A DNA stretch of 64,000 nt from Styela clava (taxonomy: Eukaryota; Chordata; Ascidiacea; Stolidobranchia; Styelidae), in NCBI RefSeq assembly GCF_964204865.1, contig NC_135250.1, forward strand, positions 19,893,395-19,957,394, in the 5' to 3' direction. Below the pieces are notes generated by a model. That model searched no databases. It had not been told where the DNA came from and saw only the letters and a list, made by a program, of their open reading frames with translations. Below are positions 160-13,603 of the stretch, piece by piece (positions within the stretch are counted from its first letter, which is position 1; each line of letters begins with the position of its first letter). The position numbers were made by a program, and so were the translations under genes.

Positions 160-1134
160 ATGCCGCCTAGAAGAAGCAACATTTCACCCCAACAGCGAAC
201 GATTTTGACAAGAAGCATGTCATTGAACTTCCAAAACGAGGGAAACGACACCTGTTTTCGTGGTGTCGACGAGAAGAAATTCGGCGACGAGCCGCCGCGA
301 TTTGAAGTACATCACGTGTACGTCGCATCGAAATGCGGGCGACGGGAAAAAAGAGCAGGTATGGATATAGGAAAAGCTGCGATTCGAAAGCCGAAGAATA
401 AATTGCCGCCCGCTCGTATTGACTCGATGAAAAATCTGTTTAGCAGACTCGTTATGGATGAACAAAGTAAGAGTATTTCTCCAGATGATCAGTGCAAATA
501 TTGCAGAAGTATGAAGAGTTTTTTGTACGAAAACAATTCAGACCAACCACCGGATGGTTGTTGCTCATGTGTACATTCAATTTCACGCGGGATTGTTCAG
601 CTCGTACAAAAGCCGTCCATTTCGAAATGCCCTTTAGAAGAGCCAGTATGCCAAACCATCGTTAAGGAAACAGAGCACACGAATGCACGTGGTCCTTTTC
701 CTTGTAAAGTTAGTAACCCGCAAACTGGTCTTGGATGGAGACTAAAAGGAGGCCCAATTCATGCAGTTACTGGCGAAAATTCGGGACTCCATTATTGGAT
801 CATAACCGGAAGTATGACCGGAAGAAGAGTGTTTGTTTTTGGATTCGAGGATGGGAGTGAATGGAAATATGCAACTGTTAATCCTCACCGAAGGAGAATT
901 GCATTTAGGCCTAATAATAATCACCCAGCTTCCATAGAAGTTGACTCGAACGCACCAATTGACGACCATCGAGCGTTTTATTTGCAAGGATCGCCGGGTT
1001 CAGGTAACCATGTGCATTTAATTCCAGCTATTGACGAAAGCTTGGCAGTATCAATTAATAACAACTCGCGGAGAAGAACATTGGGATTGGTTGACGGCGT
1101 GAGGAATGCTCACTCGTGGGTGGTTGACGAATAA
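160..1134 (+). CDS. Intronless 324-aa protein of unrecognised family, paralog of the gene at 6301
   Basis: I do not recognise the family. The ATG at 160 is the start because an in-frame TAA lies at 121-123. A good splice acceptor (pyrimidine tract then ACAG, ending at 94) suggests a 5' UTR exon starting at 95. There is no signal peptide or membrane segment. Residues 1-180 are basic and probably disordered. They hold an RAGM motif (65-68) and a cysteine cluster: CxxC at 112-115 and CCxC at 134-137, which could bind zinc. Residues about 188-324 form a compact domain with regular hydrophobic spacing: VTGENSGLHYW near 203-213, LIPAIDESLAV near 287-297, RRRTLGLVDG near 304-313 and a terminal HSW. 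The RAGM motif and this domain recur in the protein at 6301-7200. An AATAAA at 1299-1304 can end the transcript. A beta-trefoil of ricin or interleukin-1 type is possible, but only as a guess. That it is a real gene is well supported; its function is unknown. Confidence 0.75.
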   Translation: MPPRRSNISPQQRTILTRSMSLNFQNEGNDTCFRGVDEKKFGDEPPRFEVHHVYVASKCGRREKRAGMDIGKAAIRKPKNKLPPARIDSMKNLFSRLVMDEQSKSISPDDQCKYCRSMKSFLYENNSDQPPDGCCSCVHSISRGIVQLVQKPSISKCPLEEPVCQTIVKETEHTNARGPFPCKVSNPQTGLGWRLKGGPIHAVTGENSGLHYWIITGSMTGRRVFVFGFEDGSEWKYATVNPHRRRIAFRPNNNHPASIEVDSNAPIDDHRAFYLQGSPGSGNHVHLIPAIDESLAVSINNNSRRRTLGLVDGVRNAHSWVVDE

Positions 1135-1298
1135 CATATATTGATTTCAGCAGCTCGAATATTATACAGTATGATGATGATGAAAAAATTACTTCGAAGT
1201 CGAATCTGTTGAATATTCATTTTTTCGTTTTGATTTTTTAATGTCCGCGCCGAATACCCCCAAGAAAATTGCCAACCGATTACAGCAGAATCGAACAT

Positions 1299-1304
1299 AA
1301 TAAA
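1299..1304 (+). terminator. Polyadenylation signal AATAAA
   Basis: An AATAAA hexamer lies 165 bases after the stop codon of the 160-1134 gene. It is the first such signal downstream on that strand and is a plausible transcript end. Confidence 0.4.
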
Positions 1305-4300
1305 AATATATAATTTTGCTTCTCCCACATGATATTTTTATTATGCCTTCCACATGCCCGCAGTAGTCTTCTTTATTTGTCACACGCACCATTTTATAAG
1401 CACCATCATGCATTTTTCATAATTTTAAGTGAGTCACTTCTAGAGTTACTCTGATAATAATCGCCTTTCCGGGGGTAAGTTGAAATTACTCTATATCGAT
1501 CGAAATGAGTGTTATTTGTGCACTCTCACGTACGGCATGGTGAAGCGGCATCGTTGTGTACAGAAGTAGTTTTGTGTCGTGGAATGCCGCTCGATTTCTA
1601 TAAATTATGTATGATTTGCGGGAAATGAGTTTATATGTAACATATTGTGATTGTTTTTCTGTAAACGAACTTTTTCCGCACAAACTTTTTAATATCTTAT
1701 TTTTATTTCTGTCTCCCCGCGCTTTTCATTCACCAAGAATTGGATTTGGGTTTGACTTGTCTCAATTAAGAAACAATTCAGTCAGAGCAAACAAACCAGC
1801 ATAAGTCTGTTCCTTAAATTAGGCTTAAATAAGAACACATACCGGGTATATCAATTCATTTGCATATAATCTATCCCTAGTAAACAAACCGGGATTTTCA
1901 ATCAAATTACTGACAACATTGTTTTTTAAATACTGCATTAGCGTGGTAAATATTAGATTCGTGAAAATATTCAGTGTGCCCTAGTTGACTGTATTTTATG
2001 GGGCTGGAATATTGAAAATCCGAATACTGTTGCATTGTCTTTCATTGTTATTTGTAATAAAATGCAAAATGTGAATAGATCCGTTGTCTGAGTTATTCGT
2101 TATAGATAGAGGATCAGTTAAACACATAGTATTGATTAAATATTCATACCACGCTGTTGGTCGAGTTTTAATGCGGTACAACACGAACAATCCGATACAA
2201 TTTAACGAAGCTTGTGTATCTGGCTGTGACATTTTTTGATACGTGTTCGAAGGAAAAACATCAGATGCCGCTTTGTGTCCACCTGTCATTTAGTTTCCAA
2301 TTCTGATATGCACGTTTATTGGCTTGCCTCTATATACATCCCCATTCGATTGTGAAAGTTAAAAGAACTTTAGTACCATCATTTTCGGTGTGAGATTGTA
2401 TGTATTTGAGATGAGATTTGGTGTATGATTAATATTTAAAACGTCAAATATCGTAAAAGTAAAATGTTACAACATGGCATTTCAAACATCATCATAATTG
2501 TGTTAACTTATAACATTTGGAAGCAATTGGCCGTTTCCAAAAACAACGACCTGCAACTCAAATTATCTGGAGCGAAACAAATTCTCGGCTAATTTGCATA
2601 AATCGATAATGAGCAGAATAGCTGGTAGAATATTAGTGAGGGTTATCCCTGATCAACCTTGTTTATGTGAAAAGAAAACATAATTTAATCGCTTACTCGG
2701 GCAGCGACCATAAAAATGCTAAGTATTCCGTACGAGTGAAACAAAACATCGTTTGACCTTTTGCTTTTCTTGAAAATCGAGTCCACTTATCGTGAACATA
2801 TTCCCAAACGCGTTTATAAATGAGGTCCATGTTTGCATGTAGCTAGTAGTGAATAAAACTAATCAACAAATTGGAACTGATACGATAGCAAGATTGAAAA
2901 TAACCGAATCGAAGTAACTATAAAAACTGATAACAATTAGAAGAATTATAGAACGAGCGGGAACACATTTTGCAACAATCAAGGTTGGCGGAGCATGCAG
3001 GTTTTTTCGTCTCGGTTATTGGTGGTATTTAACGTCCGAATTGAAACAACGAATAAGTTTTTACAACAAGTCTACGCCCTCTTAAAACAGATTGCCACGT
3101 TTTTTTAAAACAGGGTGGTCCAATTATTGAGTTGTACTGAACTTCTGTATTTTGGCCAGGGTCGAACATGAAATATAATCTCTGGTACTTGGGCTAAAGT
3201 TCATATAACGTCATCATCTTGAAACCCTGTGGTGTAAAATAAAAATGGAAGCCGTCAAATACAAAATAAATACCGCATGAAGCAGTTTATAGAAAGACAA
3301 TTTTTGGCAACAGTGTTTTTATTTGTAAACCGAAAATGAATGGTATGGATAGTTACGCGCCTGAGGAAAACTCTTCCTACCATTGAAAAATTATTTACGC
3401 TCATCTTGCGAGTGTTTTTACGAGAGCGCTTGCCGAGACCACCTTTTTGTTTCAAAATATTCAACCCATTGCCATTGAAGTACCGAAAGATAAATTTAAA
3501 AATTTGTCGTGTAGCATTTTCGGGGCAGTTTTAGGATAAAACCGTAATCTTCACAGACAGAAAATGACTACTTAATATCGGATTTATACCACGCGTTGTG
3601 ATAGAATACAAAAAAATACTGGTAAATGGCAGTCAAAGCCACGAAAACGAGTCAATGTTTGCAAATTACGTTAGAAAACCTGTTCGGTTGAAAAAAGTGT
3701 CTGAGCGACTGCTGAAAGTTCAATAGTTACGACATCTTTAAAGCATTGCCACTGCCACTGTTATACAAAACCAAAAAGTCGATGCTTGGATGAATATATC
3801 CATTGCATACAGACATAAAGGTTAAACATTTTTCAGTTTTTCTGTACGAGCTATCACGACACGAGTGGACATGTATACCGATTTCATGTTTTCGCCAATA
3901 CTGTTACTGAAAAATCTTCAATATTGATACACCGGTATTCGAAATTGTCGATAATGTATAATTATCATAATATAATATTATAGCTACCGGTATACTATAA
4001 TATTGAGTGCGCGGGTTAAAATATATTCATCTGCAAACTGTATTTACAAAGAGCTAGGGCTATGGATTTGATGTCTGTGTTTCTTATGTTTACACTTAGT
4101 CGGAGCCGAAGTCGTATTTTCAATATCCTTCGAGTCGGAGTCAAAACCCACCCGTATCGGAAGAAGTGCTGCAGTATGCAATTTTCTACAGAATCTCAAA
4201 AGTCATTTACTAATCGTTTTCACAGTCTCTAAGTACGCATGCTTTGATTTTATAGGAATTGGGAGCTGGAGTCAAGTTGTTTTATTTTATAACCTGTAGC

Positions 4301-5055
4301 CGGAAATCGTCCTCAAAAATTTTCTTTAACCGGGTGTCGTTTGCAAACAGCCCTTCGCAGTTTGTGTTTGAAGAACATTATTATCAAATTATCAGAACGT
4401 GCGACTTCAAATCAGTATTTGTGATTCAGACACCTAGATGGCCACTACTAAGTGTTCGTTAAAATACTTGAATTATTAGCACCATAAATTGTTGCACGCT
4501 GTTTGAACTGTAAATAGTTAGGACAGGAATTATTAACCTAAATAATAAATTAAACAATTAGCAGTTTTTTATATTTTAGACCGGGTTTATTCTGGAACAA
4601 GCCTTTACGATTTAGAAACGACGATTTATAACACTTATAATCAGTCTTTGAATTTACTAATTTGGAGCAATAACTTTGAACATGGTGTGAATGAAGTTCA
4701 TACATTTGTGCCATTATTTATTATACCGGATGCCAAAATTTTGCCTTTTCGGTTATTTTTCTTCAGGATCGGAGACAAAATCAATGTATCTGGAGAATGA
4801 CATTATAATTTTTACTAAAGATCTAATATCGCAATATTAACAATAATCGAAAATTACCACGACGTTTCTTGTTTTGAGAATTTAAAAATTAGTAATGCGG
4901 ATATGAACTGCAGTAACATCGTTGTGACAAGCGATGACGAAGCTGCGTATAAATAACATTGTTTGGTGCCCACGCTTCCTTAAAATGTTGCAAATGGCTC
5001 TCGTTGCATTATCTATGTACAACTGAGAATGGTCCTATCATATTTACTCAATTAG

Positions 5056-5101
5056 TAGGATGCGAGGTATCCATCCTTATTAGGATGCGAGGTATCCATC
5101 C
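5056..5101. repeat. Direct tandem repeat, 21-bp core, two copies
   Basis: A 21-bp core beginning TAGGATGCGAGG occurs at 5056-5076 and again at 5081-5101 with no mismatch, separated by TTAT. It looks like a simple slippage duplication. Confidence 0.8.
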
Positions 5102-5951
5102 ATATCGAAACCGGAAGTGGTGCCAAATACCTTTTTTCTTCAGGTTTATATCGGTCGTTTATATCAACGTCACTATGTGAATTTAACTGGACTTTGTGCA
5201 AATGTATTAGCGTATATATTTACGGTATTAGTGCAACAACCTATACTTTGATAGTAACGAGTCGATAAAAATACTAATATCGTAAATTTTACGATTAACA
5301 ACGACTTGGTTCTAATTCAGGACTGCGTTAGTTTGGGTTTTAGGACTGCCAGATTATATTATTTTGCACGCGGAATTAAAATTTAGACAGGGATTGTAAC
5401 ATTGCAGCTATATTTAAAAGTATTTAAATTTCAAGGTAAAAATGCAGATAATTTTAGGAATAATATTGTTAAAATACTCGACACGTATAGTTTATTTGGT
5501 AAGACATTTAAAAAAGTTTACAGGAATCATCTAATTAATAATCAGCTTCATCGTCTTACGAAGTGTTTATGATTCTTGTCCTAAATGGGCTTTGAACAAC
5601 AAGTTACGAACGCACGAGAAAGCATATTTATTGTAATATTCAAATCCTCATAGTTATGCATATCTATTAGTTCTATTACCCATTCATTAAGTCGCTGTTA
5701 GAAGTTATAAGATAATGATAAGATAACGATAACGTTATTTTTCTTCATTCGCAAAGTTGGATTTTTATTTTGTGATATTTTTTATACTATAATTAAAATA
5801 CTACTAAACCCCCAGTCACAGTTATAATTATCTTCACGCAACGCAGCGAGTATATAAGTCAGTGGTATGAATAAACATCATCTCAATCATATGCAATGCA
5901 GATTTTCATGTCTTTTCTCTGAAATGAACTGAAGATAACAGTTCCATTATC

Positions 5952-6055
5952 ATTGCACCCTCGTACATTTGCAACCGTAAATTGCACCCAGGACATTTGC
6001 ACCCATGAACATTTGCAACCATGTACATTTGGGGCCACAGACATTTTCACCCACG
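5952..6055. repeat. Degenerate ACATTTGCACCC-type tandem repeat
   Basis: About six imperfect units of 15-20 bp follow one another. Each carries a variant of ACATTTG, mostly followed by CAACC or CACCC, with a variable linker. The array ends 245 bp before the start codon at 6301 and could influence that promoter. Nothing else supports a function. Confidence 0.6.
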
Positions 6056-6300
6056 GATCCACCTAACCAAAGATGAACATACATAAAGTAAAATGATATT
6101 ACTACAATTGAATTTGACCACAAAAAGCGAAAACCTGTTAAAAAAATTGAATGCTACTAAAAAGGAAAAAGGGATATTTTGGCATATTATGACAATACCA
6201 AACTATGATCTTAAAAAGATGAATTTCAATATCACTTAAAATATGTTTTGCATACATTATACAGATTATTTTCTATGTAAAAGTGCAATAAATTTATAAC

Positions 6301-7200
6301 ATGGAAAAGGATATTGATATATGCAAAAGGACTGGACTTTATCAAACAAAAAAACGCATGCTCTTCTCACAAAAAAGCTTCAGTGATGATGAAAGCGAGT
6401 CAGTTCACAACAGCAATCGCGGTTTTTTTTCTTGTAGCAGTTCTGATTATGACAGCGATTCCGAGTTTGAACAGAGAAAGCATCGTGCCGGAATGAACAA
6501 GCGTCGTGTAGCTAAAAAATGGAACTCTATCAGAAATCTCAATGAGATGAGAGCTAAATTTGACAGTTTTTTGTCCGATTGGTTATTGGAAAACAGAGAA
6601 GATGAAGTGAGACTGTCTCGGCACGAGACACGTCGACAATGGAGCTGGCGAAATTTATCTACTGGCAATTGTGAACCGACGATAAAGTCTATTCGTTATC
6701 AGTTTTCAAATAGAAATCAGAGCTTGATTATAGCCAAGTGTGTTCCACATGAGGAGGCGCCGGTGGTTAGTTATTTTTCAACGAAGATAAGGAGTAAAAC
6801 AAGTCTAACCGCATGGAGTATCTCGCTTCCTGATGCCAAAATATACACTGTAGTCGGAGACGGTTCAGAAATTCATTGCTGGAAAGAATCTCCATCAAAT
6901 AGCAATGAATATAACAGATATTTTTTTGCTGTAATGAATATTATGGGAAGGTATAGGTTTGTAACGATCAAAAGCGGAGATATAGAATTGGGTAGGGGTC
7001 AAACGGATATTGATACAGCTGCGGAAGGTCAGGCATTCCGTTATATTGGAGATGTGATGTCTGGAAAACGGCTTTTAGTTCCAGAGAATGACACCAGTCT
7101 CGCACTTAAAGTTCAAGAAGAAAATGGACGGCGACGTGTTTTGTTAACTGATATTTGGAGTGAGGCGGAATCTTGGGAAGGACTGGCCGATTTTGAATAG
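6301..7200 (+). CDS. Intronless 299-aa protein, paralog of the gene at 160
   Basis: The family is unrecognised. The ATG at 6301 is preceded by an in-frame TAA at 6289-6291. No signal peptide or membrane segment is seen. Residues 27-56 are rich in Ser and Asp/Glu. Then come RAGM (62-65) and a basic helical stretch (66-110) resembling the same region of the first gene. The C-terminal domain (about 170-299) aligns with residues 188-324 of the 160-1134 product: WSIS, IYTVVGDGSEIHCW (181-194), FRYIG (246-250), a block with SG, LLVP, DTSLAL (253-269), then GRRRVLLTD (276-284) and EAESW. The cysteine cluster of the first protein is absent. Same orientation, shared motifs and lack of introns indicate an old tandem or retro-derived duplication. 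The lack of a signal peptide fits a cytosolic, nuclear or leaderless-secreted protein. Function is unknown. Confidence 0.75.
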   Translation: MEKDIDICKRTGLYQTKKRMLFSQKSFSDDESESVHNSNRGFFSCSSSDYDSDSEFEQRKHRAGMNKRRVAKKWNSIRNLNEMRAKFDSFLSDWLLENREDEVRLSRHETRRQWSWRNLSTGNCEPTIKSIRYQFSNRNQSLIIAKCVPHEEAPVVSYFSTKIRSKTSLTAWSISLPDAKIYTVVGDGSEIHCWKESPSNSNEYNRYFFAVMNIMGRYRFVTIKSGDIELGRGQTDIDTAAEGQAFRYIGDVMSGKRLLVPENDTSLALKVQEENGRRRVLLTDIWSEAESWEGLADFE

Positions 7201-11830: not shown

Positions 11831-12775
11831 CTCAAAATAATCAAGGTAGCAATGGTATAGAAAGCTTGTGGTAAGACAATCGTAACGGAATGAAGTATTT
11901 CCCTCTAAGTAAAAGACAACCGAAATATTTCTTTCAAATTTAAGGGAAATACGAGAGTTCATCATCCGGTAGTCGGTAAGTACAAATGTTTATTGAATCA
12001 ATTTATATTTTAACCAAACCTCCGTTATTGTGCATCCACACGTGGCCAACTTTCAAAAATATATGCAAATATTTAAACTGACTAACGTCGCGACTGTTTA
12101 CTCGTTTTATCAGGAAGCTAAATCCAAGTCGTGCTTCAATGTCGTTACATTTCATGCTGACGCCATCGCGCTGCGTTTAATTTTAGCGACAATTGTCGGG
12201 TTTCAATTCGATGTTGATACGCGCTTAGAGGGTTGCAAAAATAGAAGCTAAAATGATGAATAAATGGCTTTTATCTGAGGTGTTTTAAATAGTAAGGGCT
12301 TTTCATTCTCAATCGCGTGGCGAACAATCATACTTTTCGGGGTATTATTGTTCGTGACTTTTTCTTCAGCGCACAGTTCTTAATTTCTTGTCTTGGTATT
12401 CCAGAATTTGTATTATGAGTTGAAAGATTTCGTTTATTCGCGGAATTACATAATATAAAATGTAGGAGAAATATTCAAGTTTTAATTCTAGTTGATACAG
12501 CTATGATTTTATGAGCCGCTGCAAAACAAGCATTTAATGAATGTATTACAATTTCGTGTTCGCACCAGTTATTAAACCAGGTTTGTTCACTGATGCATGT
12601 CGATGATTTTTCTATGCATAATGCCTCTGGTATAAATAACATACCTGTTGTGCGTGCATAATGTAATTACTGACGAGAAAGATATTGCTGCAATGTTCGA
12701 TTGCAAAATCTGAAAATTGCTACACTTTAGTAAGGGAACCTTCACATTTACACGGATAAGCTCTTTATGTTACAT

Positions 12776-13603
12776 ATGGATTTAAAACGATTTCTAGATA
12801 GAATAAAATATGCTGGACCAACTAAACCTCTGGGTATCGATCTCTTGAATGAACTATGCGTGCATTTTGTGTCATCCATACCTTTTGACACGTTGGACAA
12901 TTTTGGCGGAAAAAAACGAGATTTTCATTTGACTGTTCTTTACGACAAAATCGTACATGAACGAAGGGGGGAAAATTGCATCGGCCTCAATGCTATTTTA
13001 TATTGGATGCTTCATGAACTTGGATATAGTGTTGAAATTTGTTTCGGTTGTGCTTATGACACTGGAAAGCAGTGCTTCGAGGATGATCGTCATCATATTG
13101 TCGTACTCGTAACTTTAGATAGTGGGCAAACATGGGTGGCGGATGTCGGTACAGGTGGACGATCTTCTTTGCTACCTCTATAATTAGACCGACTAAATGT
13201 AGAACAGTCGCAACCAAACGGTATATTTATCGTGACCAAACACGATAATTGGTACGTTGTGTCAAAGAAGAAACAAATTCAACTTGACACTGACGGAAGT
13301 AAGCTGCAACCACGGAACGCGCAAACGAGAACTTCTCAAAGCAAATACCAGATAAATGATGAATGGACGGGGATATTTGGGTTTAATGACGAGCCTAAAC
13401 ATTTAGATGACTTATCGGATATATATATTCACTCACAAGAGAAACATCCTCTCACTACCTGCAACAGTCTTGCTATCCAGCTTGACAGAAACCATCGAAA
13501 ATTGCTATTGGGGAGTGTGTTCGTGGAAAAAAAGTACATTGACCCTATGACAGTTCAAGTCGTTCGAAAGCGAAATTGTGGGCATGGTAAAGTCATCATG
13601 TAA
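12776..13603 (+). pseudogene. NAT: Arylamine N-acetyltransferase with one in-frame stop
   Basis: NAT enzymes transfer acetyl from acetyl-CoA to arylamines and hydrazines in the cytosol, through a Cys-His-Asp triad. Starting at the second ATG (12776, giving MDLKRFLDRI like other NATs), the triad is Cys68 (in RRGENC, usually RRGGxC), His107 (in DRHHIVV) and Asp123 (in WVADVGTG). The first two match the numbering of human NATs. Codon 136 is TAA (13181-13183). The same frame then stays open for 139 codons with the expected C-terminal half (NWYVVSKKK, IFGFNDEP), to a stop at 13601-13603. Total length would be 275 residues, close to the usual 290. No intron is seen, as in many animal NAT genes. A CAA-to-TAA change would explain the stop. 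It could be a recent pseudogene, a null allele, or an assembly error. A 135-residue product would keep the triad but lose the third domain. Confidence 0.85.

Follow-up and report, generated by a model that had tools for sequence, protein, structure and literature searches.

A tandemly expanded family of leaderless beta-trefoil proteins in the tunicate Styela clava and its possible relation to interleukin-1

Introduction

Interleukin-1 (IL-1) has been called a vertebrate innovation (PMC9382457), and according to a 2022 review (PMC9020223) IL-1 genes are known from vertebrates alone. The same review notes that IL-1-like activities have been described in tunicates and other invertebrates and that IL-1 receptor-like genes exist there; putative IL1 receptor genes are also described from the Ciona genome (PMC5465252). 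Here we describe two genes, A and B, that lie in a 64,000-nucleotide stretch of the genome of the ascidian Styela clava (NC_135250.1, positions 19,893,395 to 19,957,394 of the forward strand), hereafter referred to as the window, together with the wider protein family to which they belong. The evidence provides good support for a beta-trefoil family that is leaderless and has expanded in tandem in a tunicate, and we weigh whether that family may be IL-1-like. Among the titles listed by our literature search, which did not reach most subscription journals or bioRxiv preprints, none reports such a family.

Results and Discussion

Genes A and B belong to a larger family

Gene A (positions 160-1134 of the window, plus strand, 324 residues) and gene B (6301-7200, plus strand, 299 residues) are each present as a single open frame, as a first-pass annotation had proposed. 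Smith-Waterman comparison of the two products yielded z values of 11.9 over their full length and 10.1 over their C-terminal parts, with 0 of 1000 shuffles scoring as high in either case, which rules out chance as an explanation of their likeness; BLASTP aligned them at E 1e-6 (for a single comparison). The blocks reported to match between them hold (IHAVTG/IYTVVG, HYW/HCW, SLA, and AHSW/AESW), with the qualification that RRR-x-L-x-L-x-D is literal in A (RRRTLGLVD) whereas B carries RRRVLLTD, which is one residue shorter. The N-termini have indeed diverged (leaders: z of 1.3, with 113 of 1000 shuffles as high): the leader of A carries CxxC and CCxC cysteines (493-570, plus strand; motifs at 493-504 and 559-570) and that of B an acidic-serine tract (6379-6471, plus strand). 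An RAGM motif is found in A within a basic stretch that is a possible nuclear signal (residues 65-68; 352-363, plus strand) and in B ahead of a basic stretch (residues 62-65; 6484-6495, plus strand), but in none of the 10 other members examined.

Although A and B are related, they do not define a family by themselves, as had been suggested, but form part of a larger one. A search of the genome (376.6 Mb, 379 contigs, with the window on contig C1) with five single proteins (A, B, L002, L008, and L020) identified at least 13 loci, the window pair included. A sixth query (L018) yielded no more, and the count is a lower bound because the search scores best candidates only. A third tandem copy (L002; C1:19886349-19887155) is located upstream of the window at a distance of about 6 kb, on the opposite strand, and further members were identified elsewhere on C1 (L018 and L019), on C13 (L020, L021, L022, and L030), and on C14 (L008, L016, L017, and L023). 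When run on the 3265 open frames of the genome stretches retrieved, a hidden Markov model (HMM) built from the nine members outside the window cluster recovered the third copy at E 1.6e-9 and A at E 5.1e-8. B was not significant by this model (E 0.13) and is joined to the family through A, by the BLASTP and shuffle tests given above. When compared profile against profile, the window cluster and the nine other members matched with a probability of 98.1 (E 1.4e-13).

The final alignment (A6) comprises 12 members, with five N-terminal residues of L017 trimmed since the preceding alignment (A5); L023, whose frame is broken and split over two frames, was excluded from the alignments. The 12 aligned members have frames without stops and are unlikely to be pseudogenes. 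Five further genome matches to B (L010-L014; E 1.6-6.9), four of which contain stops, were taken for chance. L017 and L023 (C14:10449054 and 10452994) resemble each other closely and lie about 4 kb apart in opposite orientation.

The C-terminal domain is a predicted beta-trefoil

The conserved beta-rich domain that had been proposed for A and B is borne out and can be sharpened to a beta-trefoil on the predicted structure of their relative L022. The L022 model is a confident beta-trefoil of 12 strands with structural matches to beta-trefoils over the whole domain, and it is predicted to fold like IL-1 and IL-18. Fibroblast growth factor 2 (FGF2) was among its Foldseek matches (TM 0.73 by target length); neither FGF nor IL-1beta was among the 50 VIA-align matches listed, which proves nothing. 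An AlphaFold2 model of A computed with three sequences (pLDDT 36.5) was too poor to judge. The domain of A (703-1131, plus strand, 143 residues) is assigned to the beta-trefoils by homology only, to the L022 model, and that of B (6778-7197, plus strand, 140 residues) by homology through A.

Each protein carries one such domain, of about 142 residues, at its C-terminus. In 9 of the 12 members (A, B, L002, L008, L016, L020, L021, L022, and L030) it is preceded in frame by a Met-started leader of 80-181 residues; in L016 the open frame extends a further 50 codons beyond the first Met in the upstream direction. The absence of a signal or membrane segment noted for A and B agrees with a crude 19-residue hydropathy scan (maxima of 0.71 and 0.74), and no signal- or membrane-like segment was detected by hydropathy in the nine members as read from their putative start codons (maxima of 0.54-0.99). 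As judged by hydropathy only, a leaderless layout, that is, a leader before the trefoil and no classical signal peptide, is found in 9 of 12 members. The description of these genes as intronless holds for the coding parts of A and B, but a splice-acceptor-like CAG stands upstream of each ATG (at about 94 for A and 6265 for B). Across the family it likewise fits nine members, but not L017 and L018, which have acceptor-like sequence close upstream of the domain, or L019, which has no clear start; starts are also unclear in L017 and L018.

All four C13 members, and none of the eight others, have a CDGI-x-D motif right before the trefoil, at the place where caspase-1 cuts IL-1beta after Asp. Coding constraint is visible where silent sites are measurable, as between L022 and L020 (dN 0.28, dS 1.39), which is the case in few pairs; most other pairs are saturated at silent sites, and A and B are near saturation over their shared domain (pS 0.70, pN 0.53).

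Comparison with known families

Pfam scans covered four complete proteins (A, B, L002, and L008) and, for all members but L030 and L023, the domain alone (11 members). Consistent with the view that the family is unrecognized, these scans gave no match better than E 0.069 within the libraries used, save chance-level matches to unrelated names. No significant match was obtained when Protein Data Bank (PDB) sequences were searched with A, B, the consensus, or an 11-row profile, and no PDB chain matched the 11-row profile at E 10. As a control, ten human sequences all matched their own Pfam families. Among these, IL-33 matched its own model and failed PF00340, so failure against PF00340 does not exclude IL-1 membership.

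Comparison of the 12-member family profile with profiles of IL-1, IL-1 plus IL-33, FGF, and fascin (hhalign) favored IL-1. The family scored 28.3 against five IL-1 sequences (27.7 on trimmed columns; probability 27-29%) and 28.1 against IL-1 plus IL-33, as compared to within-family yardsticks of 29.7 for IL-18 against the other four and 18.0 for IL-33 against the five. The real score exceeded all of 200 column shuffles (mean 10.8, standard deviation 2.1, maximum 18.0), and the reversed family profile scored 15.3. Rotations of the profile that kept the aligned stretch whole scored 27.7-27.8. In the alignment, the D-x-R of the family, with Arg kept in 11 of 12 members, is paired with the IL-1beta strand EKRFVF, and in L022 the segment LRSCKDPGLFV is paired with FESAQFPNWYI of IL-1beta, with Pro in 3 of 12 members; both places correspond to IL-1 signature motifs, the latter known as the FES-PG-WF motif (PMC12108812).

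Several observations weigh against an IL-1-like identity. The HHalign probability of the IL-1 match was only 27-30%, and global alignment cut the score to 15.4. Rotating the profile by two thirds should destroy any collinear match, yet the rotated profile reached 21.2 and so exceeded every shuffle (20.8 for rotation by one half), and the IL-1 signal is therefore partly local. It also depends on which members are included: without the C13 cluster the score was 22.0, without the window trio (A, B, and L002) it was 30.6, and the window trio alone scored 11.1 against IL-1 and 14.3 against FGF. FGF outscored IL-1 for 9 of the 12 members taken singly (9.3-19.4 against IL-1, 10.5-20.6 against FGF), among them A (15.7 versus 10.2) and B (15.9 versus 13.5), and single-sequence targets averaged 16.1 for IL-1 and 16.0 for FGF. 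PF00340 gave no match above its cut-off in the genome, nor in 14 control genomes, a set that held no positive control; a weak match was noted at L050 (17 bits, E 1.09). The strict IL-1 PROSITE pattern, which occupies the site of the FES-PG-WF motif, fits 0 of 12 members, and an ad hoc relaxed version fits 4 of 12. Since tests for PF00340 and for the signature pattern both came out negative, we do not file the family within the IL-1 superfamily (IL-1, IL-18, and IL-33; PF00340 and PF15095), from which it also differs in that nine of the 12 members have a single-frame coding part and in that its host is not a vertebrate.

Weighing the alternatives

The main rival, which we consider a real though clearly less probable option, is an intracellular or nuclear beta-trefoil protein akin to fascin, FRG1, or hisactophilin. 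Its trefoil would bind actin, nucleic acid, or another protein, the basic leaders would serve as localization signals, and there would be no secretion. Fascin is a cytosolic beta-trefoil protein and, at odds with an IL-1 assignment, its model (PF06268) rather than that of IL-1 was the best Pfam match of the family consensus, albeit below cut-off (E 0.05; 14.2 bits versus a cut-off of 23.1), and was not listed for the scanned members. This weak match does not show fascin membership, since FGF1 also matches fascin at 3.5e-6. Profile comparison points away from fascin, which scored 14.4 (17.9 on trimmed columns, above a shuffle maximum of 16.1) and was outscored by IL-1 in all 10 family subsets. 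Moreover, fascin comprises four tandem trefoils, seen as four Pfam stretches in the fascin control, whereas the family has one per protein, and fast-diverging tandem copies would be unexpected for a structural protein. A defense role for the domain as a lectin of the beta-trefoil type, or as a carbohydrate-binding module, appears unlikely. The fold scores of the L022 model tie with those of lectins, differences within 1 Z being counted as ties. QxW repeats are the mark of ricin-type lectins, and QxW was found in 0 of 12 members; no ricin-type, MOA-type, or other lectin family was listed in the Pfam scans, in which few matches above E 0.1 survive HMMER filtering, and the proteins lack a signal-like segment.

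Some FGFs are leaderless, and a divergent FGF of the intracellular kind (like FGF11-14) would share both this property and the beta-trefoil fold. The FGF2 match of the L022 model and the higher FGF scores of nine single members and the window trio profile speak for this reading, and the single-member scores led us to raise its odds and lower those of IL-1. We nevertheless regard it as improbable: the family profile scored 13.6-14.3 against three FGFs and 17.4 against five (at most 17.3 across sets of three), column shuffles reached 23.2 and thus topped the real FGF score, the alignment with three FGFs was shifted by a third, and PF00167 was not listed in the Pfam scans of members or consensus. 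Least probable in our estimation is an independent origin of this beta-trefoil family within the lineage, in which case its function would have no connection to that of any named family. The lack of a significant sequence match in Pfam or the PDB is consistent with such an origin, as is the tolerance of the fold for unrecognizable sequence divergence, even among IL-1 paralogs (PMC12225799), but the collinear IL-1 profile match above all 200 shuffles argues against it.

Collectively, the profile-profile scores and the layout make an IL-1-like role the best-scoring option for the family, and the earlier suggestion of a leaderless cytokine-like protein stands as a leading guess, with the reservations that the fold ties with lectins and that it is the wider family, not the window trio, that carries the IL-1 signal. 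We assign a probability of roughly 0.4 to the family working like an IL-1 family cytokine. The stronger claim, which would place the genes inside the IL-1 superfamily as invertebrate members that encode leaderless IL-1/IL-18-like ligands and have undergone tandem expansion in a tunicate, is somewhat more doubtful. Fold and sequence likeness do not prove cytokine function.

Neighboring features

Within the window, an open reading frame (ORF) at 12767-13183 resembles arylamine N-acetyltransferase (PF00797, E 9.5e-25), and ggatgcgaggtatccatcc is present in two copies at 5058 and 5083, a spacing of 25 bases. Upstream of the window, a single-frame ORF of 154 residues (L003:5505-5969, minus strand) resembles Cu/Zn superoxide dismutase by eye, and ORF pieces that by eye resemble a retroelement polyprotein and a transposase (L003-L005) sit between it and the trefoil cluster. 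An exon for a GH6 domain, above its Pfam cut-off, was identified on C9; GH6 in animals points to tunicates, in keeping with the host.

Possible mechanism and implications

If the family is IL-1-like, A and B would be leaderless proteins resembling IL-1 family precursors, with a fast-changing N-terminal leader and one C-terminal beta-trefoil. The leader would hold the precursor in the cytosol or nucleus until release upon cell damage or a protease cut near the start of the trefoil, which in the C13 members might fall at CDGI-x-D, and the freed trefoil would signal through an Ig-TIR receptor. For immune ligands under a need to diversify, duplication in tandem followed by fast divergence would be fitting. 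TIR exons (E 0.001) were identified at three places within 23 kb on C10 (G000:C10:21227269-21249627), one of them with internal stops; the first, which was the sole one compared with PDB sequences, was closest to Toll-like receptors.

With its leaderless layout, beta-trefoil domain, and collinear profile match to IL-1, the family provides concrete ligand candidates for the IL-1 receptor-like receptors of tunicates, and such candidates render the question of an invertebrate IL-1 directly testable. If the IL-1-like reading is true, then the ligand, and not the receptor alone, would predate vertebrates, and there would be a candidate gene family behind the IL-1-like activities that tunicates have been described as showing since the 1980s.
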